Positions 4,615 to 64,000 of a stretch of DNA of 64,000 bases are shown here, in pieces. Under the pieces are notes generated by a model that did no database searches, was not told the origin of the DNA, and was given only the letters and a program-made list of their open reading frames with translations. Location: the NCBI RefSeq assembly GCF_964204645.1, contig NC_134026.1, positions 9,187,450-9,251,449 on the forward strand, given 5' to 3'. The translations under genes were made by a program, and so were the position numbers. This DNA comes from Tubulanus polymorphus. Taxonomy: Eukaryota > Nemertea > Palaeonemertea > Tubulaniformes > Tubulanidae. How positions within the stretch are numbered: position 1 is the first letter of the stretch; each line of letters opens with the position of its first letter.

Positions 4615-4701
4615 ATGGATATTGGATGCACACAAGCTTTGCCCCTGTTTGACAGTGAATGCGATTTGAGTGATAATGAGGCCGATGATGATACCCAGCC
4701 T
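4615..4701 (+). CDS. MDC1: MDC1-like exon 1: acidic N-terminus with TQ sites
   Basis: These 29 codons begin MDIGCTQALPLFDSE and end DDDTQP at a GTGAGT donor. Human MDC1 likewise begins with a TQ a few residues in (MEDTQAI), where phosphorylated Thr4 is bound by the FHA of a second molecule to form a dimer. Here the same spacing gives T6-Q7-A-L, with a bulky aliphatic at Thr+3 as in human. I infer that the dimer switch is conserved. The acidic stretch EADDD separates it from the FHA. Confidence 0.85.
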
Positions 4702-7700
4702 GTGAGTGATAATTGCCAATGATAGGCCAAGGCAATAGCAATCGACATTGACATTCTCAACAATGAATCATTAATCAATCAGTCAAAGATCCAATCAATC
4801 TAGGCCTAGTCAGAATTCTATTTTCCCAACGTGTGATTCCTGTTAGATATTGAGGTCTAACGTGTCAATAGCAACTCACTATGTCACAACCCACAAAGTT
4901 TAAAGTCCACCATCGCAAAACCGAAACATACAAGAACTTCAACTCGTTCTTTGACTTTCTATGTTAAATCCTTGATGAAATGCATTGGAACAATCTAGAT
5001 AACACCACCGTCTCAGCAACTTCAGTGGAAGCCTTTTGAGCAAGGCTCTGCTGTCTTTAGCCCTGTATAGTACAGTAATCCTTTAACCCGCTGACCTAGT
5101 TCCTGTCAGCGTTCCGATCCAGAAGGAAAATCCGAGTGCGTAGAACAATAGTTAGAGAAAAAAGAGTCGACAGAGCAGTATTCGAGCCCGGGCCCGCATA
5201 TTGTTAGCGCAGCATCTTGCCACTAGACCACAAAACGCTTGTTGATTTATACCAAATGCTTTACTACATAGCACTCAACCTGACTCTTACCCTCTAGACT
5301 CTAACTGTATGGAAACCTTAGGCATGATGAAACATTTTTATTGTTATTCTTTATTAGTAATCTCTGCCAATTTCAATTAACACAATTCTTAACTCCTATG
5401 CCTATCAATACATGTGATGAATTTTGACAATACCTGACTTATACTTTTTTTTAAATGAGAATCACATTAGGCCTAGATGTTAAGAAATTAGAATCATATT
5501 TTTTACATTAAATGGGGATTTCTCATTGGGTTCAGTTACAGGAAAAGTTAACCTTTGATCTTTGGTTAAGCCACTTTTGGTAAGGTAGGCTTTGTTCGTG
5601 TATTCAGTGAAGATAACAATTCAAACTTAGCCCAAACCTTTTCTAGAAACTGGACTGGACCCAGGTGATATCTGTACGATCAGCACTACTGAGGTAGATC
5701 ATATTAATTATGGCAATTGAAGAGAAATGCTAATTTGTCCTTGCTATCATTAATTTCAGATTGGTAAATTGACAGTACCAGCGCAACAAGGAATCGCTGA
5801 TTTATTTTTTTCGATTTATGAGGGTGAAAATATAATCGGACGTGATCCGGCTTGTAAGATATATATACCAAGTGCGGTAAGTACAGTAAAGCCTGGTTAT
5901 GTCGGATTTTTTTGGAACAGGGATTCCTCCTCCGACTTGGGCTAAAATTGAAAATTGCTTATCATAGAAAATGATCCAAAATATCTGAAATGATATGATT
6001 GGTCTATGATAATGTCACCTAGTTATATATATCATGCGAGCTTTGCAATTTGTTCTTTTCATTCATCGTTCCTACAGTACTGGGAAATTGGGAAAACCTT
6101 GGGAATTTTTAAATAATATTTCCAGTTTGGAAATATGTCTCAGGGAAATATTTGGGAAATTCATTTACAGAGAAACTTTCTTCTTCAATTTCTCTTGAAA
6201 ATCACCTTTATCAACCAGTCATCACTGAAATGTTGATTGTAGTTTTATGGTATCTGTTCATTTTTATACGAAGGCCCCATTTTCCGTTTGGTGAATTTGA
6301 AAAATCTTTATTGAAAAATTTGAAAAGTCTTCAAAATATTTTCATCATTTATTTGGACAATTATATTTGATAGCTTTAGCTACATTACTCCCCTGGCTGC
6401 TTGAGGCTCTTGTTCATTTTCCCCTGTCTGAAACTTCCTAAATCTCAAGGTCCATGGACCACTTGTATTATTTTGATAAGAAATATGGGCCTTTATTTGC
6501 TAGGGATACTACTTTGAACATTGACCAGCCAACCAACTCTAATAAGGCTAGTATTGAAATCCCTCAAACAGGTAAAATTGCTCCAGCAAGCCCATGTTAA
6601 GAAATTTAGTGTCATTCTTTTTATAGAATTAGAAACCATTTTCCTCTAAAACTGGCATGGTTGTCAACAGGGAGGCTGGATTTACTGAAGTTCCAAATGT
6701 TGAAATCCCTGTAAAAGTAGAATATGCCTGCGGTCCCTTGGTTATTCCCACATATGCGACACAAAATGGTGTCTAATCAAATCAAATATCATAAAGAAAG
6801 CATGTATGGTAATCTCTTAATCCTGTATGGTATCCCTTACTAAAAATCTATTTCAACAAATCATTTATACAAATGATTCTTTACTTTAGGTATTAAGCCG
6901 GGAACATGCTTGCATTGAAGTTCAAGGTGGAGTTCATATGATTTATGATAAAGGAAGTTTGAATAAAACGAAAAGAGGAAAGGTGGGTTTCAGAATTAAG
7001 ACTGTCAAAAATTAACTCATCCGTCCGCTATTGTAGTGATTCAGATTTGATCCTGACTTGACTGACCTTGACCGTCGCACTGCAAAACCCGGCCTGCCTT
7101 TGTAGACCACATATCAACCAATCAGGAATTGCTTGATAATTGAGTCATGCTTTGGCATTTCCTGAACAATTCAGAAATCCAGTCATCGCCGTTCGTCAAA
7201 CCGGTTTCAGCAGCAGCATTGAAATCAACGGTGCAGTATTTCGACGCTGAGAAAAGCGCCAACTCAAAACTGACAAATGGCCATAGATTTACTTCAGCCG
7301 TGCACCAATTTTTACCTGTTTCCTCAAGAGTGGTTACAAGGGTTTGTGCCAGGGTTCAACCTGGAGTCAGTGCCATCAGCTTGAAGTCCCAACAGTGGGG
7401 TTATTCTACATTGTAGCTGCAATCACACAAGGGTTTTTGGCCCGTGCCAACCGTTCACATGGGTGCCAAATGGACATCTGCCTGTTAGGCGCTGGCCAAA
7501 TTTGACCTCATCAAAAGTCATATCATGTCCAAGCCGAATATTTTGACTGGTTAAATTAAAGCCTGTGAATTGCTACTGGTTCCAGGAGTCACTCGGTTTG
7601 TTGTAGCATTTTTTGATTTTGAGTGAGTGGCTTACGTGTGAACACGCTCTATTATTAGACACGGGCCAAATTTGACTCTTGATCCCGGCCAAATCATCTC

Positions 7701-10700
7701 CGTGTGATCAAAGAGTTTGTACTCTTGACTCGAACAGAATCTTGGTGCCATCGGTACAAATACCTGCATGCAAGGCTCCTCAAATCTCAGATGGTGAATA
7801 TAGAAAATAATATTTTTGTCAATATATTTTTCAGTTAACCCTGAGTAAAGATGTTCGTTACGAGCTTAAGGATGGAGATGAGATATTTTTTGGAAACATC
7901 AGCTCTGTCTATAATAAAGTCAGTAAGGTAAAATTCTTAAATCAACATTTTACTTTTAAAACTGGTGGCCATTGTTTATCCTTAAAATCAGCACTTTTGG
8001 CATACTTTGTACTTAAGTCCCTGCATTCACTTTTTGACCATCTGTCCGGGTTAGATATCAAATGCACATATCTTAGGCCTATATGAAATTTTTCCATTTA
8101 TATAGGTACCACTTCATATTTTGTAAGCACAATCAATTGCAAAATTGTAGCTCATGAGATGCTCTATGATTTTGGTGAATTTCAGGGTTATTGGCTTCTG
8201 TATATTTTCACCAGGGGTGCTGAATAGGAGATTAACACATCCTCTCCTGATGGGATTCAAACCTGATGGCATTGAGACTGCCATAGTAGGAAACCCTGCC
8301 TCTCCAGATCGAGTGAGGCAGGCATTATCAGCCAATCAGCAATTCCGTTTTATTTTAGCCCAGGTTTTTCCATTTATAGTTCTTTCATGAAATTTGCCTC
8401 AGCAATGATACAACTGCAAGTTTTGGTGTGGTAAACCAGCGCATGTGGCTGAGTAGCGATGCCATCAGGTTTGAATTCCTGCCGAGCGAGGATGTGATTA
8501 ACACGTTATTTCCATATACGTGCATGTATATTGGTATAAGCATATTTTGTAATCCCTGTGAATTGCCAAAATTTTAGCTTAATGACAGGTTCTTTGATTG
8601 TGGTTTATATCAAGCTCATTGATATCTGTATATGTTTACCAGGCGTATTGAAAATTGAAATTGTTAGATTGTCAAGCATTTTCCCTTTGATACCTACCGG
8701 GATAGTCTATGGGACCGATCTTATCATATTATGTAACTTACAGTAGAATCATTGTTTTAGATGTTAGCGGATGACAGCGGTTCAGAGACTGGGTCTGAGT
8801 CATTATTGCCAATGCCAGTTGCTGGAATGGTGGAAGATTCTCTAATTGGAAGAATTGAGGTATGGCCTTCATACATCAATACATTTCTAGTTTATCATAT
8901 CTACCAATGCTTTGAGAAATGAAAACTTTGAGAACCTACAACTTGAGATCCTTATCAAAACGAGTTTTATTTTTTGATACAGTTTTATATTGAATCGGCG
9001 TTAAATGTTTAATTACCCAATTGAGTAAAAGTTGAGTGTATGAATCCAACTTCTGAAATTAGAATTCAGATTTCCGTGCCTTCTTGCTTTCAGTCCACTG
9101 GGGGCTTACGCCCCAGTGGGCTATTGCGTCTGCAATTTGATTGATGTTGGTTCATGAACAGAATGGAAATATGTGACAGGGTGTATAACAGCGTTCCTAC
9201 TAGCTCAGCTAGTGGGAATATTCCCTTTGGCTCAGCGGTAGAAGGTCTGCCTTGGACGCCAGGCATCGAGAGTTCGAATCTCGGGAAGGACAGATATTTT
9301 TGTTACAAACAGTATCACAAAAAAAACAAAGCAGCAACTGTAGAAGGGTTAGGGTCCAGAGAGTTAGGGCAAAGGGTCAAGAGGGTTTGCGTTAGGTTAT
9401 GCATTGAAAAAGGGTAGGTTAGGTAGGTTAGACTTAGGCTATAAGTAGTAAAAAAGTTACTGTGCTGACAGTTGGCCTTGATGGCTCAGGTTGTAAGAGC
9501 GCTGCGCTAGCACATTGGTGCTTGCGAGTTTGAATCCTAATTTCCACCATTATTACCTGAAATTCCAATTCATCAGGTTTGCGCGTTCCAGCCATTCCCT
9601 ACTTGATCAAACATCAACCAAATTGCATTGTGTTCACTTTTCGTGCCTCGTCCGTTCGAAAAGACAGAACCCAGGGAAATTTTGGTTTTTCAATTATATT
9701 TTCAATCATATTTTTGGTTTGTATTTTTGATATTATTACTTCGTAAGCACAATAAATTGCAATTTTTGACTCATGCTCTATTATGATGGTGTGTTTCAAA
9801 GCTATTTATGTCTGTATGTTCACCGGGGGGGGGGGGATGTTTACCCACAATCAAGGTAGGCTTATATGTTCACCAGGGAGCTTTGTGTAGTTGAATAAAC
9901 CATAATCCATTGCAAATTTATAGCTCATGATGCTCTATAATCATGGTGAGTTTCAAGGTAATTATTTCTCCCTGATGGGGGAGATCGTATTTTAGTCTGT
10001 ATCCACTGTGCCATCCCCTTGAGACATGATCCCCGTGATATAATTCATGATGGATTTTTCTTAAACTTAACGTGAGGGTTGGGGCAAGTGAAATGTCCTC
10101 CCCTATTGAAAATAGAGGTTATCGGCAATCAAATGGCTGCCAGGGCAGCCATCTTGAATTTCTTGTTAGCACGATACAGCCTTATTCTTTCATGAAAAAG
10201 TGAGTACGTATATATACCGGTATGTTGTTACCATAATAGATTGTAAATTTGTAGCCAATGGCATTTTCTATGATAGTGGTGAGTTTCACGGTCATTGATT
10301 AGGCTTACTGTTTTGTTCACCAGGGGGCTTGAATTCAAATTGTCAAGTATTTCACCAAGTGGACCCCTAGTTAAACGTGCTTTCATTCGTATCACTTATA
10401 TGTAATCAATCTAAAATAATTGACCATCTTTTTCAGGATAACAAATCTGATAGAGGTATGTACTACGCATGTATTCTTTTTTCTGATCATATTGCACATT
10501 TCAAGAAAAGATCCTGGAGTCATTGAATGAATGCATTTACACTCATGTCATAATTAGGTTACTGTTTTACATGATTTGTCATCACTGGGTGTTGACTGTA
10601 AAGTAAAGATCCTGATTACTAAAATGAACTCGCGAGTGATATGTTATGCTTAACATACAGGCCAACTGCAACTTCCGCAGTCATGAGTTAGATTTCATTT

Positions 10701-13700
10701 TGGTCAAAATTAAAATGATAAGGGCGGGAGGTACCCCACTTTTGAATGTGAGAGTCAAGTCCATCATTTGCACAATTGATTGACCAAAAAGAATCAGATT
10801 GCAAAGAAATGCATCGACAGGCTTCCAGAAATTCTACATTTCAAGGACTTCTACCATGCCTGTGCTTGCACCCCCCTTCCAAATATGGTTCCACAGCCCT
10901 TATTCACATGTGTATGAAATCCTTTTGGCACAAAAGCTGTGGAATTTCATCTGAAGGTCCCATTAACAAATAAAAATGAATGATACATTTCAATTGAATT
11001 TTCCAGCTGAGGAGGCAGACACATCATTGATATTCGATGGTGAAACGCAAGGGTACGATTACGACATATTTAACCAGCCAACTCAAGCTTGTAGACCCCC
11101 CAATTCAAAGTTGAAAGACACAGATGAGGATGATGAAATGGTAAATACATGTGTTAAAAATATACGGGTACAATAATAGGTTTTACTACCAAAAAAATTT
11201 TTCTGATTTCAATTTGCCAGCAGTAAAAATCTGTCTACATTTTACTGATTAGACACCAGGTCAACACGGCTCATCTACTATACTTTGATTTTCTTGTAGA
11301 AGTAACAATACATACGTATACTAGATATTACAGTATTCATTCAGTAATCAAGAAATTTCCCATCAGAACCCAGTTCTAAAGTTCAGAATTTGACTCAAGA
11401 GATGCATAAAAAAAGGCCCAGTTCAACTTTTCTGAGTACAACTTAACTCAGGATTAAGATTAAACTCTACAAGAGTCAGAAGTCATCTCAGAACTTTTGA
11501 ACTGGGACTTCATGCTTTTTGAATCAAATGAGTGGCCTCTCATTAGATAACCTTTATTGATTATTTTTTCATGGAGTTAATTTATGTAAATTTAGGATGA
11601 CGAGGCAACAAAGGAGAATATCAATAATGTGTCATCAATGTCGGACATTTTTGATCAATCTACTCAACTGTGTGCCTCAAATACAGTGGCCAGTGATGAC
11701 GAAACAGACGATGATGAAACTACGACAAACATTTTCTGCGAACCGACATTGGCCATTGATCTGATCAACGAATCGCCTTCCGAACGCAATAAAGCCGGTT
11801 CACCGATTATGTCTACTGATGCATCAACTCAAATACTGTCGTCGCTGAGCGCTTGTGCTCCTACGCAGATACTGTCTCCGACAGCGAATGCACAAACTTT
11901 GCTCTTATCCTCTCCATCTGCTAGTGCCCCTACGCAGATTCTCTCCCCTTCTGCCACATCGTTTTCCGCCTGTGCGTCAACTTTGGTGCTTTCTCCCTCC
12001 ACTAGTGATACGCAAATACTGCCAGTGTCTCCCATTTGTCAACGCAACAGTTCTCCTTTGAAGTCTGCGCTTAAATCACAAAACGAAAAGGCAACGATGT
12101 TGAAAAAAGTCATCAAGTTTGGAATTGAAGATATGGCATGTGAAAATTATGATGACGATGACGATGATGATGACCCTGATCGTACTCTAGATCCAGCTGA
12201 AGAAGTAAAATATGATGGTACTGATCAAGAGAATGCAGCTAATAGATGTTCAAAATCTGGTGAAGAACCAACTCAAGCTGTTGTATTTGATGAACCAACT
12301 CAAGTTGTGACATTTGAGGAGCCAACGCAAGCTGTAGCATTCGATGAACCCACTCAGGCCATGGGTCTGGATGAACCGACTCAAGCTGTGACATTTGAGG
12401 AGCCAACTCAAGCTGTCGCTTTTGATGAACCCACTCAGGCCATGGGTTTGGATGAACCAACTCAAGTTGTGACATTTGATGAGCCAACGCAAGCTGTAAC
12501 ATTCGATGAACCCACTCAGGCTATGGGTCTAGATGAACCAACTCAAGCTGTGACATTTGAGGAACCAACTCAAGCTGTTGCTTTTGATGAACCCACTCAG
12601 GCCATGGGTTTGGATGAACCAACTCAAGTTGTGACATTTGAGGAGCCAACTCAAGCTGTTGCCTTTGATGAACCCACACAGGCCATGGGTATGAATGAAC
12701 CAACGCAAGTTGTGACATTTGATGAGCCAACGCAAGCCATGGGTCTAGATGAACCAACTGAAGCGGTGACATTTGAAGAGCAAACTCAAGCTGTGACATT
12801 CGATGAACCAACACAGGCTATGGGACTAGATGAACCAACACAGGCCATGAAACTGAATGAATCAACATTGACTTTGGAGCTTGAACCCATGCAGCCTATG
12901 GAACTAGATGAACCCACTCAACCTATGGAACTAGAGGAACCTACTCAACCTATGGAACTAAATGAACCTACTCATCCTATGGAACTGGAGGAATCAAAAG
13001 TAAAAGTAGGAGTTGTTGCAGGTGTGAAACCAAGAGGCGGAAGAAGAAAACAAAAGATAAATGAAACTAAATCTGTGAGTCTTGATGAATCCACTCAGCC
13101 TATGAGACTAAATGAACCTACTCAGCCTATGGGAATAGATGAACCAACACAGCCTATGGGAATAGATGAACCAACACAGCCTTTGGAACTGGAGAAATCA
13201 AAAGTAAAACTAGGAGTTGTTGCAGGTGTAAAATCAAGAGGTGGAAGAAGAAAACAAAAGATAAATGAAACTAAATCTGTGAGTCTTGACGAACCCACTC
13301 AGCCTATGGGAATAGATGAACCAACACAGCCCATGGGACTGGATGAACCCACACAGCCTATGGGACTAGATGAACCCACTCAACCTATGGGACTAGATGA
13401 ACCTACTCAACTTTTGAGATTAGATGAACCAAAAGCTGAAGTAGGAAATGTTACAGATGTAAAATCTCGAGGAGGAAGGAGGATACAAAAGGCTTCTAAA
13501 AATGTGGATTATGATACAGAGGCTAAAGTTAAAGTTGAAACTCAGCGCAAAGCTAGAAAAGGAAAGCAGATGAAAACACATGAAGCAGACCAAAATGCTT
13601 CAGAGCTGGAAGAAGTTAGAACCAGGGTTGGTAGTGGTATTGAAACTGCAGTTGAACCTGATGTCCCGACAGCCCAAGTGATAAAAAAATCATCTGATAA

Positions 13701-16700
13701 ATCAAAATCAAAAATCTTGGATAAGAATCAGCAATTTATTGAACACAAAGTAAAAGCAATCAGCCGAGAATTGGATTTACCAGTTGAAGGAACAACAGTT
13801 ACTAATGGCAAGGGAAAAGGAAAAGGAAAGCGCAAGACAAAGAAACCTGATACACCTGATATTGAGATTTCAAATAAGAAAGATACTTCAGAACTCTCTT
13901 TGGCTGAAGTTCCAATGGATGAAAGCATGATAAAGGATAGTGAAAAAGTCACTACGGTGAGAGGGAGACGGAGCTCCAGGAAATCAGTGGTTCCATCCGT
14001 ATCTTGCAGTAAAGGCTCATCTGAAAAAGATGTTAAACCAGACAATATCAGTAGTGCAGAAGTGCCGTTGTCTGCTGAATTGAATGATCAAAAGACTGTT
14101 AGTAATACTCAGGGAAGGGGTACAAGAAGCACTAGGAAATCTGTTATGCCTTCTAGCAGTGAAAGTGAAGTGATTACTAAAAAAGATATGTCTCCAGATG
14201 GTATTGGACATACTGAGGTGTCTTCGTCTGGTGATGCAAGTGAACAAAAAACTGTTAGTAGTACTCGGGGAAGGGGTATAAGAAGCACTAGGAAATCTGT
14301 TATTCCTTCTTGCGGTGAAAGTGAAGTGATGACTAAAAAAGATATTTCTCCAGATGAAATTGAAAATACGGAGGTGTCTTTGTCTCTTGATGCAAGTGAA
14401 CGAAAAACTGTTACTAGTACAATGGGAAGGGGTACAAGAGGCACTAGAAAATCTGTTAAGCCATCTAGCAGTAACGCAATGACTCAAAAAGATGTTTCTT
14501 CAGATGGAATTGAAAATAATGAAAAGTTGTCAGTTGAATTAAGTGAACAAAAAACTCTTACAAGTAAGAGAGGAAGGGGAACAAGGCGCGCAACAAAATC
14601 GCTTTTACCTTCTTTTAGTCAAGGTATGATCGAGAATGATGGAATTGAAAAGACTGATTTGCCTGATGAACTGAGCACTGGAAAAACTGTGTCTAGTAAT
14701 ATGGATAGAGAAATGATGGCTGAAAGGATACCAATTTCATCCGTTAATGTTCAAAGCAGGATTGAAAAAGACGATCAAGATAATGCTGAATTAATTTTGC
14801 CTCCTCAAGCAGTTTCTAATTTGAGGGAATGTAGGAGATCTGATAAGGACAAGTCAACTATGCCAGGTGAATCGAATGAGCAGCTGATTGTTACTAATAG
14901 CCGCATAAAAGGAAAGGGCAAAGCAAGAAAGTTTGTGAGCCCATCCCCAGATAACAGTAAAGATCTTTGTGCTAGAGAGAATAATGAGGTTATTTCAATG
15001 TCTGATACGAGTCAATCAATGGCTGAAAAAGTCGAAGTCAAAAATACATTGCCTGCGAAAAGTACTAGGGGTAGAGCAACAAGGACCACAAAGAAATCAG
15101 TTTTGCCTGCCATCAGTCAAATTGTGACTGAAAAAGATGATCAAGAAAAAGATTTAGTTTTGCCTCAAGCGCCGTCTAATATGAGGGTTCATAGTCAAGG
15201 AAAAGACAGTATTGTAGTCGAAGATGTAACCGATACTTCAAAAGCCAAGGGCGAAAGAAAACCAATTGAAAGTGAGTCAACTGTACCTGCTGACTTAAAT
15301 GAGCAGAAAACTGAAACCAATACCCGTGCAAAAGGGAGGGGCAGAACAAGAAAGTTACCAACCACATCCGCAGCTAGCTGTAAAGAAATCTGTACTGAAG
15401 GGAATGCCAAAATAACTGTCACGTCAGACACTAACAGCCACAAAAAAACATCTGTAAGCAGGCGCAGTCATGAAAAGATTCATGCTGGAATGCGTGAACC
15501 TGATATTCCTAGAGCTAAAAGGGCAAAGAAATCTACTGAAGGAGAAACTTCTGAAAATTTGGAAAATCAGTCTCCACCGATACGTCATGTCGTCGCTAAT
15601 GACAAAACTGACAATGAAACAAATGAGCAAAAGGCTGTTGATGTTAGTAGCGGAAAAGGTAAAGGAAGAGGGAGGTCTAAGAAATCTGTGATACCACCTC
15701 CTATTGATGTGTTTGAGCAAGATACCAAAACAGCTGCTTCACCAAAAGCGAGAAAGAAATTAATGAGCGTAAGTGATTGTTAAGATTAATTTCACAACTA
15801 TCAATGTTTATTTGCGGATTAAATGGATGATAGAATATTTAAGAATTATCCCTCACACTTTTTTTCTATTTCAGGGTCTGGTTGTTAAGGTCATGTTCAC
15901 AGGAGTTGTCGATGAAAATGGACAGAAGGTACCCAATATACTGGTATACCAGAATTGTTTTACGATGTTAATTTATCTTGCAACATGAAATTTTCTTTTA
16001 GATTGTGAAAGAACTAGGTGGAGAGTTGAACAATTCTGTTTTGGAATGTACTCATCTAGTTACTGACAGGGTAAGGGACGAAATTGAAAGTGAAAAGTTG
16101 AACTTCAGAAACCTTCTGAGTATTCATAAGCTCTCATGTATATTCCTAACGTAGACCTTCATACCAGATGAACCCAATCAGGAAACCGTTTTAGAATATT
16201 AAACAGCCATATCATATAGTGTTATTTCACAGTTGAGTTTGAATGTAACCTCATCTAGATAATTGGTGTACATGTACTTAATTTATCTTCAAAAATAGGT
16301 GAGGCGCACTGTCAAATTTCTATGCTGTCTCAGTAGGGGAATTCCGATCATAAGTACTGCGTGGTTAGAAAAGTGTAAATTGACTGGCAAATTCATCGGT
16401 AGGTGCACATCTTAATAAATTCAAACCTGCTTACTTCGTTAGATGCATGGAATCTGGATTTTGAAAATCTAATCTGGGGCCAGCAGCTTGATGAACACAT
16501 TTCAGGGTCCGATCTAAGCACTCGTCCGATTGCCCGGGACAAGTATATTCTAATCAGGGCAAGTAGGTTATCATTATCACTTGTCCCACGGGCTCATGAA
16601 ATTTAATGTCAGAAAACTTTTTTCCCACTCAATACAACGGATGATAGTGCCACCAATCGGACTGCCTGTGTAGGGCAAGTAGCTTTTGGAGGGAGCAAGC

Positions 16701-17257
16701 GAAATTTCTGATGTACTTGCCCCCGGGCAAGTGGCTTTCATTCCTTAGATCGGATCCTGCATTTTCATAAATTTTTTTGTACAGTTTCATCATCTCTTTC
16801 AGATTGCACATCATTTCTCATCAAGGATGTGGAAAATGAGAAGAAATACAAATTTGATTTGAAACACAGTATTTCTGTTGCGGCGAATTGTACATTATTG
16901 GATGGATATCAAATTCACGTGACGAAATCTGTTAAGCCCGATCCAGCTACTATGAAAGGTAAAATTGTGATCTAGCTATCATATACATACTTTGCTAAGT
17001 TTTAGAACTGGAGAAATTGATGTTTATTCAATGTGCTCTTCTTATTTTTTCTTACAGAAATCATTGAATCTGCAGGTGGAAAAAGGACAACCATGCCGAG
17101 AAAGGCGGCCGAGAAAACTGTTGTTATCTCCTGTGAAGAAAACATCAAATTATGTAAAGCAGCCGTAAATGCAGACATTCCAGTCGTCTCGGCAGAATTC
17201 ATATTGACAGGAATTCTGAGACAGCAAGTCGACGTTGAATCATATCCTTTATACTAA
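4615..17257 (+). CDS. MDC1: MDC1-like mediator of DNA damage checkpoint (FHA, TQ repeats, tandem BRCT)
   Basis: Proposed coding exons: 4615-4701, 5760-5876, 6890-6982, 7835-7927, 8761-8859, 10437-10455, 11007-11140, 11596-15768, 15875-15928, 16002-16070, 16299-16398, 16803-16958, 17058-17257. A start codon at 4615, GT-AG junctions and unbroken phase give about 1797 aa. The order is that of vertebrate MDC1: an N-terminal TQ motif (CTQAL at residues 5-9), FHA (about 30-130), a long disordered repeat region and paired BRCTs (about 1606-1797). In vertebrates MDC1 is a nuclear scaffold: the BRCTs bind phosphorylated H2AX tails at double-strand breaks, the FHA binds a phosphorylated MDC1 N-terminus, and ATM-phosphorylated TQXF sites recruit the ubiquitin ligase RNF8. 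BRCT residues for the phospho-tail are kept. The middle is not alignable to vertebrate MDC1; it has 9-residue TQ units and basic RGR repeats in place of PST repeats. The downstream neighbour MIB1 is convergent. Confidence 0.93.
4702..5759. other. MDC1-like intron 1
   Basis: This 1.06-kb intron opens with GTGAGT and closes with TTTCAG. It contains a tRNA-derived SINE on the - strand (about 5055-5227), listed separately. The rest is AT-rich with no recognisable exon. Confidence 0.7.
5055..5227 (-). repeat. tRNA-derived SINE
   Basis: Read on the - strand, the head (about 5227-5160) has an A-box-like TGGTCTAGTGGCAAGATGC and a B-box-like GGCTCGAATAC, as in RNA polymerase III tRNA promoters. The tail continues into non-tRNA sequence ending near ACTGTACTATACAGGGC. 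The head does not fold as an intact tRNA, so this is a SINE rather than a tRNA gene. Confidence 0.6.
5760..7927 (+). CDS. MDC1: MDC1-like exons 2-4: FHA phospho-threonine-binding domain
   Basis: Three exons (5760-5876, 6890-6982, 7835-7927), all phase 0, encode residues 30-130. FHA landmarks are present in order: GRD (Gly56, Arg57), SREH (Ser71, His74) and GSLN (Gly90-Asn93), then the closing strands KDGDEIFFG and SVYNKV. Arg57, Ser71 and Asn93 are the positions that hold the phosphothreonine peptide in FHA folds, so binding should be intact. Lys94 stands where many FHA domains have Gly after the Asn. The fold length of about 100 residues is normal. Confidence 0.92.
5877..7834. other. MDC1-like introns 2 and 3
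   Basis: Intron 2 (5877-6889) and intron 3 (6983-7834), split by the exon at 6890-6982, are AT-rich. No exon, RNA gene or well-defined repeat can be supported. A TTGGCAC/TTTGGCC-rich passage near 7430-7700 resembles text near 20750-21010 and may be an old interspersed repeat. Confidence 0.5.
8100..8720 (+). repeat. Interspersed repeat copies in MDC1-like intron 4
   Basis: Two or three diverged units of the CTCF-core repeat family are present: GTAAGCACAATCAATTGCAA, then GCTCTATGATTTTGGTGAAT, then TTCACCAGGGGTGC (8209-8220), and again near 8570-8650. They are in the opposite orientation to the copies at 1.7, 25.3 and 60 kb. Confidence 0.6.
8761..8859 (+). CDS. MDC1: MDC1-like exon 5: acidic linker
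   Basis: This 99-bp phase-0 exon lies between a TTTTAG acceptor and a GAG|GTATGG donor. It encodes an acidic, Ser-rich linker beginning MLADDSGSETGSES and ending LIGRIE. There is no domain. SGSETGSE has spaced acidic Ser sites of the kind CK2 uses, but it is not an SDT repeat. Confidence 0.8.
9092..9122 (-). repeat. GC-rich hairpin terminus of a Helitron-like repeat
   Basis: AGTCCACTGGGGGC and GCCCCAGTGGGCT are inverted around a 3-4 base loop, followed on the + strand by ATTGCG. The mirror-image structure with CGCAATAGCCC at 26111-26147 shows that this is a shared element end. A GC-rich hairpin close to the 3' end is typical of Helitron-like elements. Confidence 0.6.
9222..9290 (+). repeat. 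tRNA-like SINE head or tRNA pseudogene
   Basis: An A-box-like TGGCTCAGCGGTAGAAGG and a B-box-like AGTTCGAATCT are spaced as in a tRNA. The acceptor arms (TCCCTTT against GGAAGGA) pair with one mismatch, and a TGCCT/AGGCA anticodon stem closes an 8-base loop, which is not canonical. No CCA or Pol III T-run follows closely. A repeat-derived copy is more likely than a working tRNA gene. Confidence 0.5.
9474..9548 (+). repeat. tRNA-like SINE head
   Basis: TGGCTCAGGTTGTAAGAGC (A-box-like) and GAGTTTGAATCCT (B-box-like) are about 38 bases apart, in a 75-base tRNA-like stretch that ends TTTCCACCA. The acceptor arms do not pair well. It was probably brought in as a SINE. Confidence 0.5.
10437..10455 (+). 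CDS. MDC1: MDC1-like exon 6: 19-bp microexon
   Basis: A TTTTTCAG acceptor and an AGAG|GTATG donor bound 19 bases encoding DNKSDR plus one base. Phase is kept: the flanking exon ends in phase 0 and the next exon supplies GCT GAG. Without it the reading frame into exon 7 would fail unless that exon were also skipped, so it is probably constitutive. Confidence 0.65.
11007..11140 (+). CDS. MDC1: MDC1-like exon 7: linker with two TQ sites
   Basis: The 134-bp exon between TTTTCCAG and ATG|GTAAAT encodes AEEADTSLIFDGETQGYDYD, then a linker including NQPTQACRPP and ending DTDEDDEM. It carries two TQ dipeptides, the second with the PTQ context that is later amplified in exon 8, and ends in an acidic Asp/Glu cluster. 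Confidence 0.85.
11141..11595. repeat. MDC1-like intron 7 with a hairpin element
   Basis: A foldback repeat spans about 11415-11508: GGCCCAGTTCAACTTTTCTG at the left is inverted at the right as CAGAACTTTTGAACTGGG. It belongs to the same hairpin class as copies at 18.0, 20.2, 52.9 and 53.8 kb. The rest of the intron is AT-rich and empty. Confidence 0.65.
11596..15768 (+). CDS. MDC1: MDC1-like exon 8: giant repeat exon
   Basis: One uninterrupted 4173-bp exon (1391 codons, residues about 215-1605) runs from a TTTAG acceptor to the donor ATGAGC|GTAAGT; the frame would hit a stop a few codons beyond. Order of contents: an acidic SDDETDDDET patch (near 11690) like the CK2-phosphorylated SDT motifs that bind NBS1 in vertebrates; five TQ(I/L) sites (11640-12020) among Ser/Pro/Ala-rich text; a poly-Asp run (12145-12175); the 9-residue TQ array (12262-13434); a Lys-rich linker; RGR basic repeats (about 13945-15700). 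The region looks fully disordered. Vertebrate MDC1 also has one very large repeat exon here, but with unrelated PST repeats. Confidence 0.93.
12262..13434 (+). repeat. MDC1: In-frame 27-bp minisatellite encoding 9-aa Pro-Thr-Gln units
   Basis: The unit is (D/E)EPTQ(A/V/P)(V/M)xx, 9 residues or 27 bp. Block 1 (12262-12994) has about 27 units, 23 with intact TQ. Block 2 (13084-13197) has four and block 3 (13288-13434) has five TQ units, giving 32 in total. In block 1 the units alternate TQ(A/V)V(T)F, TQAVAF and TQAMGL, forming an 81-bp higher-order repeat of about five near-identical copies. Blocks are separated by two near-identical basic linkers (GVVAGVK, RGGRRKQK, INETKSVSLDE). Nucleotide identity between copies suggests recent unequal exchange. 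Degenerate units (TE, ST, MQ, TH in place of TQ) occur toward the 3' end of block 1. Confidence 0.95.
13945..15700 (+). repeat. MDC1: In-frame repeats of basic RGRxxRxxxKS motifs
   Basis: About nine copies of a basic motif recur: RGRRSSRKSVVPS, GRGTRSTRKSVMPS, GRGIRSTRKSVIPS, GRGTRGTRKSVKPS, GRGTRRATKSLLPS, KGKGKARKFVSPS, TRGRATRTTKKSVLP, GRGRTRKLPTTS and GKGRGRSKKSVIPP. Four central copies (14100-14640) sit in larger units of roughly 55-65 residues that also share a (T/V)SEQKTV(S/T)S and xKKDxSxDxIE text. The RGR core resembles an AT-hook. I infer DNA or nucleosome contact, a job that the PST repeats do in vertebrate MDC1; the sequence alone does not prove it. Confidence 0.85.
15875..17257 (+). 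CDS. MDC1: MDC1-like exons 9-13: tandem BRCT domains
   Basis: Five exons (15875-15928, 16002-16070, 16299-16398, 16803-16958, 17058-17257) encode about 192 residues. BRCT1 has VMFTGV (Thr at about residue 1614), HLVTDR, then VRRTVKFLCCLSRGIPI (Arg1649, Lys1652) and the Trp of ISTAWLEKC. Thr, Arg and Lys match human Thr1898, Arg1933 and Lys1936, which grip the phosphoserine of the H2AX tail. BRCT2 has DGYQIHVT, the GGKRTTMPRK turn, TVVISC and VVSAEFILTGIL. The stop follows VESYPLY, about where vertebrate MDC1 ends, so the protein is judged complete. The first four exons have consensus donors. Confidence 0.95.
16399..16802. other. Intron inside BRCT1-BRCT2 linker
   Basis: This intron separates two phase-1 exons. 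It contains CCCGGGACAAGT and its inverted partner ACTTGCCCCCGGG (about 16533-16735), and TCTAAGCAC/CTTAGATCGGATCCTG at its edges, suggesting a degraded inverted-repeat element. No exon is seen. Confidence 0.4.
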
Positions 17258-21853: not shown

Positions 21854-63698
<41,845 letters not shown>

Positions 63699-64000
63699 CT
63701 GAAACAAAACAACCCGTAAGACCTTGTCAAAATAGGGCACGCCAACTGGGTTATAGATCTCGTAATTTTGTCTGCATGATACTGCTGAAAATGAACTCGC
63801 AAACTAAGGAAATGGAGGTCTTGCAGCCATGTGCTTTTTGGAGTTATCTACTCCTTATTGGTTAACAAACATAATAAGCGAGTTACATTACAGACCCTTG
63901 AAGTTTGTAAATCCCCTGATATTTTTTGTAGTTATGTATGGCAAGTCTCCAGCACTGGTTGGCAAAAGGCTTTGCACAAGGCCTCTAAGGTAGCCCTGTT
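63699..64000. other. MIB1 intron at the right edge
   Basis: Intronic sequence upstream of the REP exon. No MIB1 exon or other feature is visible before the window ends. Confidence 0.6.

Follow-up and report, generated by a model that had tools for sequence, protein, structure and literature searches.

A nine-residue array of 32 TQ sites in an MDC1 ortholog, a putative phospho-docking array for FHA domains

Results

In a 64,000-nucleotide stretch of animal genomic DNA (the window; positions below are counted from its first base), we identified on the plus strand a 13-exon gene that is the animal's MDC1 ortholog, and that encodes, between an N-terminal FHA domain and a C-terminal tandem BRCT domain, a long array of TQ dipeptides, mostly nine residues apart. 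The array spans 12262–13434 (residues 437–827), and its 391 open codons contain 32 TQ dipeptides. We propose that it serves as a docking array for FHA domains after phosphorylation by an ATM-class kinase, whatever the reader protein may be, and we assign to this reading a rough probability of 0.58.

In 20,000 shuffles of the same residues TQ occurred 4.3 times on average and never more than 12 times, against the 32 of the real array. The distance from one TQ to the next was exactly 9 residues in 27 of the 31 intervals, and the remaining four were 18, 26, 50 and 41 residues. We counted 36 units, 32 of them with TQ, and a proline directly preceded the threonine at 30 of these 32 sites. Tandem Repeats Finder reported the 27-bp period in three blocks, an 81-bp period at 12289–12849, which is confined to block 1, and a 204-bp period at 12883–13394. 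The self-identity of block 1 DNA was 0.83, 0.85 and 0.83 at lags of 81, 162 and 243 bp, and 0.68–0.76 at the eight remaining multiples of 27 between 27 and 297 bp. Block 1 has a net charge of −48 in 216 residues. The array is laid out as follows:

12262–12990, + strand: block 1, 27 units, 23 with TQ; contains the 81-bp higher-order repeat (12289–12849)
12991–13086, + strand: basic linker, copy 1; 93.8% identity with copy 2 across the 96 bp
13087–13194, + strand: block 2, 4 units, all 4 with TQ
13195–13290, + strand: basic linker, copy 2; separates blocks 2 and 3
13291–13434, + strand: block 3, 5 units, all 5 with TQ

The sequence-only reading of this DNA had described 27-bp units with TQ at every ninth residue in three blocks, 32 sites in total and an 81-bp higher-order repeat, and the present analysis reproduced each of these features, the 81-bp repeat being found in block 1. 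It had also taken the array to be coding, which agrees with our finding of a single open exon with in-frame junctions; an intronic or frame-broken array was thereby ruled out. A Pfam search of the array exon gave a single match, below the cut-off (expectation value, E, 0.4). The whole-array DNA matched one locus in the 268-Mb assembly (77 contigs; among the 19 of 77 that were sized, 12 measured 11.5–32 Mb), the sole second match covering 65 bases at the end of the array itself, which ruled out a dispersed repeat.

We next describe the gene in which the array lies. The spliced frame contains 1,797 codons plus a stop, and the only stop codon is at its end. Its features are:

4615–17257, + strand: the MDC1 ortholog, a gene of 13 exons; every junction is in frame and has AG/GT borders; stop codon at 17255–17257
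4615–4701, + strand: probable exon 1; residues 6–9 are TQAL; donor GTGAGTGA
5760–7927, + strand: FHA domain in three exons (5760–5876, 6890–6982, 7835–7927); Pfam FHA, E 6.9e-14
11045–11056, + strand: TQGY at residue 183, outside the array; no other TQ site of the protein has an aromatic residue at +3
11596–15768, + strand: 4,173-bp exon containing the entire array; open frame with splice borders
11827–12021, + strand: TQIL at four sites that precede the array (threonine codons at 11827, 11863, 11932 and 12010)
13435–15768, + strand: basic, repeat-rich region including a 156-bp repeat; isoelectric point 9.48 over residues 824–1605
15875–17257, + strand: tandem BRCT domain in five exons; Pfam BRCT_2, E 2.3e-27

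This model is least secure at its first exon. The initial scan demanded an S/TQ site; after this filter was removed, four candidates were found in the upstream 5.7 kb, and 4615–4701 is our judgement of the probable one among them. The domains at the two ends identify the gene. The closest PDB match of the FHA domain was that of MDC1 (3va1, E 3e-9), and the top match of the tandem BRCT domain was human MDC1 (2azm, E 4.7e-49), the next protein being PAX-interacting protein 1 (E 3e-32). The residues that contact gamma-H2AX are named in PMC11014961, and the corresponding motifs FTGVV and RRTVK and the EF glutamate are kept in the BRCT domain, the residue numbers having been matched by hand count. 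According to the same article, an FHA domain and a tandem BRCT domain are present in all of a set of 119 metazoan MDC1 proteins. Because both are present here, we assign the gene to MDC1, as the sequence-only reading had done with the words MDC1-like. No S(D/E)T(D/E) match, the SDTD type of motif that docks NBS1, was found in the 1,797 residues; such an absence is to be expected outside vertebrates (PMC11014961).

We then compared the array with the docking sites of human MDC1. The motif bound by RNF8 and Pellino is pTQXF, and human MDC1 has four TQXF motifs (PMC11884936), in agreement with the handful of docking sites from which the sequence-only reading had started. The human pT719 peptide is EDEPpTQAFA (Table 1 of PMC11884936). 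Its DEPTQA core is present in 11 of the 32 units, and DEPTQP in 7 more, so that 18 of 32 have either core; the best match to T719 covered 6 of 9 positions, and those to the other three human sites 3, 3 and 4 of 9. Thus, the array closely resembles one human site, T719, except at the +3 position, which is known to influence the choice of FHA domain. Over all 44 TQ sites of the protein the +3 residue is M in 17, V in 13, L in 7, C in 2, and I, Y, K, R or D in one each; within the array it is M in 17, V in 13 and L in 2. Since phenylalanine occurs at +3 in none of the 44 sites, the array is not just an amplified version of the RNF8 TQXF cluster. Consequently, the earlier idea of a scaffold with many docking sites holds in outline, as a multivalent phospho-docking MDC1, and fails where it implied TQXF sites.

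To describe the constraint on the units, we compared all 36. The proportion of synonymous differences (pS) was 0.58 and that of nonsynonymous differences (pN) 0.21, giving a pN/pS of 0.36. Glutamate at −2 is present in all 36 units, proline at −1 in 33, threonine in 35 and glutamine in 33. The +3 position is V, M or L and the +5 position F, L, I or M in every unit, whereas +4 may be V, T, A, G, K, E or R, so that free positions (+2, +4) alternate with hydrophobic ones (+3, +5) in 36 of 36 units. The codons for threonine and glutamine vary silently while the residues stay unchanged, which favours selection on the motif. The TQ motif therefore looks conserved at the protein level, and constraint on T and Q is consistent with a docking array.

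The similarity of the copies had been taken as a sign of recent or ongoing turnover. The five clean 81-bp copies differ pairwise by 4–14%, with a synonymous divergence (dS) of 0.11–0.64 (10 pairs, few sites), none matching another exactly. Identity does occur among single 27-bp units, and exact repeats reach at most 62 bp. Near-identical, and hence recent, copies are ruled out by the divergence of the 81-bp copies; this divergence is too great for the copies to indicate recent turnover, and the earlier claim is unsupported in that form. The array appears to have expanded stepwise and does not look very recent.

We asked which partners of MDC1 the genome encodes. An H2AX gene lies on contig C4 (26414956–26415291, − strand); its tail, SSQSQEY, has two overlapping SQ sites and fits the SQ(E/D)-hydrophobic requirement for an MDC1 partner. 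RNF8 was found with both its FHA domain (2pie, E 5.8e-15) and its RING domain (4ayc, E 8.2e-19), so that loss of RNF8 is ruled out as the cause of the missing TQXF. Pellino (best exon, E 1.5e-25) and CHK2 (1gxc, E 2.3e-20) are also present, and just upstream of the CHK2 FHA exons PTQEI occurs in a frame that is presumably a coding exon. Pellino (C1:2355744–2362177) and RNF8 (C1:2440157–2443691), the E3 ligases that read the TQXF sites of human MDC1, are about 78 kb apart on the same contig. A genome search with the FHA profile PF00498 failed to list MDC1's own exon-split FHA domain, and its list therefore misses FHA genes. A further FHA-like exon (C2:9122376–9122504, PF00498 E 1.9e-5) lies about 65 kb upstream of the window.

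The preference of human RNF8 for Tyr or Phe at +3 has been ascribed to Ile, Met and Leu at three positions before a conserved Ser, and the same article calls the +3 rule of FHA domains loose (PMC4037201); PMC11884936 assigns the +3 contact of RNF8 to an insertion loop. The equivalent three positions are Ile, Val and Thr in the animal's RNF8, and Leu, Val and Ala in its MDC1 FHA domain. An altered RNF8 pocket would allow co-evolution with the +3 residue. Among single readers, RNF8 seems the likeliest to us, a tentative choice of judgement with clearly less than an even chance; the alternatives are MDC1's own FHA domain, CHK2 and Pellino.

Other repeats were found in the gene and elsewhere. The 156-bp repeat downstream of the array (14085–14600) encodes basic units of the GRGTRSTRKSV type. 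Short tandem repeats with GGTAAAAATCCCCCC-like and TTCCTTGGCCATTTTT-like units are clustered at 31879–37873 of the window. Exons for a RING finger and for Mind bomb SH3 repeats lie at 24688–25062 and 63459–63803 (both − strand), and because of these exons the rest of the window probably extends across a minus-strand Mind bomb (MIB1-like) gene. In a genome search for other TQ arrays 150 of 339 candidates were scored and 118 matches listed, several being the MDC1 gene itself. At three loci outside this gene that were examined among the matches listed, 10 of 11 frames of at least 80 residues had no TQ and one had a single TQ. Another 9-residue tandem repeat elsewhere in the genome (positions 1033–2163 of its locus) alternates DEELTVCGF and DEELTICGS and has no TQ in frame.

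Discussion

The reading that we prefer, a phospho-docking array for FHA domains, has to be weighed against several observations that speak against it. The +3 residue, at which every TQ site of the protein lacks the phenylalanine of TQXF, has been called one key determinant of FHA specificity (PMC11884936). The hydrophobic residue at +5 in all units is left unexplained by FHA docking. AlphaFold2 placed confident strands over the first ~140 residues of the array. Finally, the units share common ancestry, and the constraint figures are not counts of independent events.

The +3 residues could point to a different class of FHA reader. The array might be a ligand for FHA domains that accept an aliphatic +3 residue, namely MDC1's own, by self-association, and/or that of CHK2, an explanation that overlaps with the docking reading. 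At +3 each of the 32 array sites carries M, V or L, and outside the array the probable N-terminal TQAL and the four TQIL sites are of the same kind. Human T4 reads TQAI, and the FHA domain of CHK2 prefers Ile or Leu at +3. In the animal's CHK2, PTQEI occurs close to the FHA domain, and the Leu, Val and Ala before the conserved Ser of the MDC1 FHA domain also suit this explanation. Human CHK2 dimerises through a phosphorylated SQ/TQ cluster that binds the FHA domain of the other molecule (PMC4296918), and the FHA domain of human MDC1 contacts other MDC1 molecules (PMC11014961). However, the DEPTQA core equals that of the human TQXF site T719, and the looseness of the +3 rules noted above (PMC4037201) weakens an argument from this position. 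We consider aliphatic-type readers unlikely on balance. If they were the true ones, phosphorylated MDC1 would be a self-linking polymer or a loading platform for CHK2, and not mainly a platform for RNF8. In its extreme form, break-induced phosphorylation would turn MDC1 into a ladder of FHA ligands and hence a branched, self-linking polymer, and the scaffold, not only ubiquitylation by RNF8, would build the repair focus; this we regard as quite unlikely.

Two further explanations dispense with FHA readers or place the threonines on a fold. The array could be a passive acidic spacer that arose from a minisatellite and has no docking role; the genome contains other in-frame tandem repeats, including the 9-residue one without TQ in its repeat frame, and the MDC1 protein itself carries further repeats. 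Yet the pN/pS of 0.36, the retention of T and Q despite silent variation, and a TQ count far above the shuffled maximum all speak against a passive spacer, which is decidedly unlikely. Alternatively, block 1 might fold into a beta-solenoid with about 27 residues, one 81-bp repeat, per turn (our estimate from the listed strands and not a calculated value) that rigidly spaces or displays the threonines. AlphaFold2, run on the single sequence without an alignment, placed a strand at roughly every ninth residue as far as residue 180, and the predicted local distance difference test score (pLDDT) was 69–92 in ten-residue blocks up to residue 140; moreover, the alternation between free and hydrophobic positions described above is strand-like and would explain +5. 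A control frame from the reverse strand of the same repeat DNA behaved differently, being helical with a mean pLDDT of 48, but it was a single control and much shorter (91 vs 391 residues). However, when given perfect repeats, AlphaFold2 reportedly predicts beta-solenoids that are confident but false (PMC11795689). A Foldseek search of the PDB gave no hit at E ≤ 0.001, the best having E 0.39. From model residue 181 onwards, a part that comprises the last stretch of block 1 as well as blocks 2 and 3, pLDDT was mostly below 50, and the net charge of block 1 also speaks against such a fold. We judge a solenoid highly improbable.

Under the docking reading, we envisage the following course of events. 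After a double-strand break, the tandem BRCT domain of MDC1 would bind phosphorylated H2AX, as its conserved contacts suggest. An ATM-class kinase could then phosphorylate the threonine in many of the 32 EPTQ units, given its S/TQ specificity and the match to human T719. The phosphothreonines, mostly 9 residues apart, would make up an acidic array at which FHA domains dock, and by such multivalency one chromatin-bound MDC1 could hold many readers or quickly re-bind one.

Known systems resemble this arrangement in part. The human TQXF cluster (T699, T719, T752 and T765), which docks RNF8 and Pellino 1/2, likewise lies between the FHA and tandem BRCT domains, and its TQ sites are of the ATM type, as here; it has 4 irregularly spaced sites with Phe at +3, whereas the array has 32 with Met, Val or Leu. 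Invertebrate MDC1 proteins, including Drosophila MU2, combine FHA, tandem BRCT and TQ repeats as the present protein does, but their repeats are described as TQxF, of which we found none (PMC11014961). The plant protein BCP4 is a gamma-H2AX reader with a tandem BRCT domain and, as here, TQ sites with a hydrophobic +3 residue; it has 3–10 TQx-hydrophobic motifs and no FHA domain, and its authors compare these motifs to TQXF (PMC11014961). The TQx-hydrophobic fragment of BCP4 reportedly showed no NBS1 binding. All 32 array sites are TQx-hydrophobic, a likeness of motif and not membership of the BCP4 family. The SQ/TQ cluster of CHK2 is similar in being a cluster of ATM sites read by an FHA domain (PMC4296918). 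Its role, kinase activation by dimerisation, is unlike the one proposed for the array. To our knowledge, it is not a long 9-residue array. Mammalian MDC1 carries PST repeats, which bind the nucleosome acidic patch. They are basic and, like the basic repeats here, are situated after the docking sites and before the BRCT domains (PMC6858307), but they differ in sequence from the GRGTRSTRKSV-type repeats. PST repeats have been reported only in mammals (PMC11014961) or in vertebrates (PMC6858307), and the 156-bp basic repeat is a possible stand-in for them.

TQ repeats in invertebrate MDC1 have already been reported (PMC11014961); what seems new lies in the size of the array, its 9-residue period and a +3 change that is uniform. 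No such array was described in the titles and abstract beginnings that were searched, in a collection without most subscription journals. The question why most MDC1 orthologs have several TQXF motifs has been raised (PMC11884936), and an MDC1 with eight times the TQ sites of the human TQXF cluster would be a natural experiment on site number, spacing and the choice of reader. The same array would also bear on the co-evolution of the +3 residue with the FHA pocket of RNF8. Finally, MDC1 has been described as an old animal gene (PMC11014961) and, in another account, as one of vertebrate-era origin (PMC3969565); provided that the host is an invertebrate, as appears to be the case, the gene reported here agrees with an old animal origin of MDC1.
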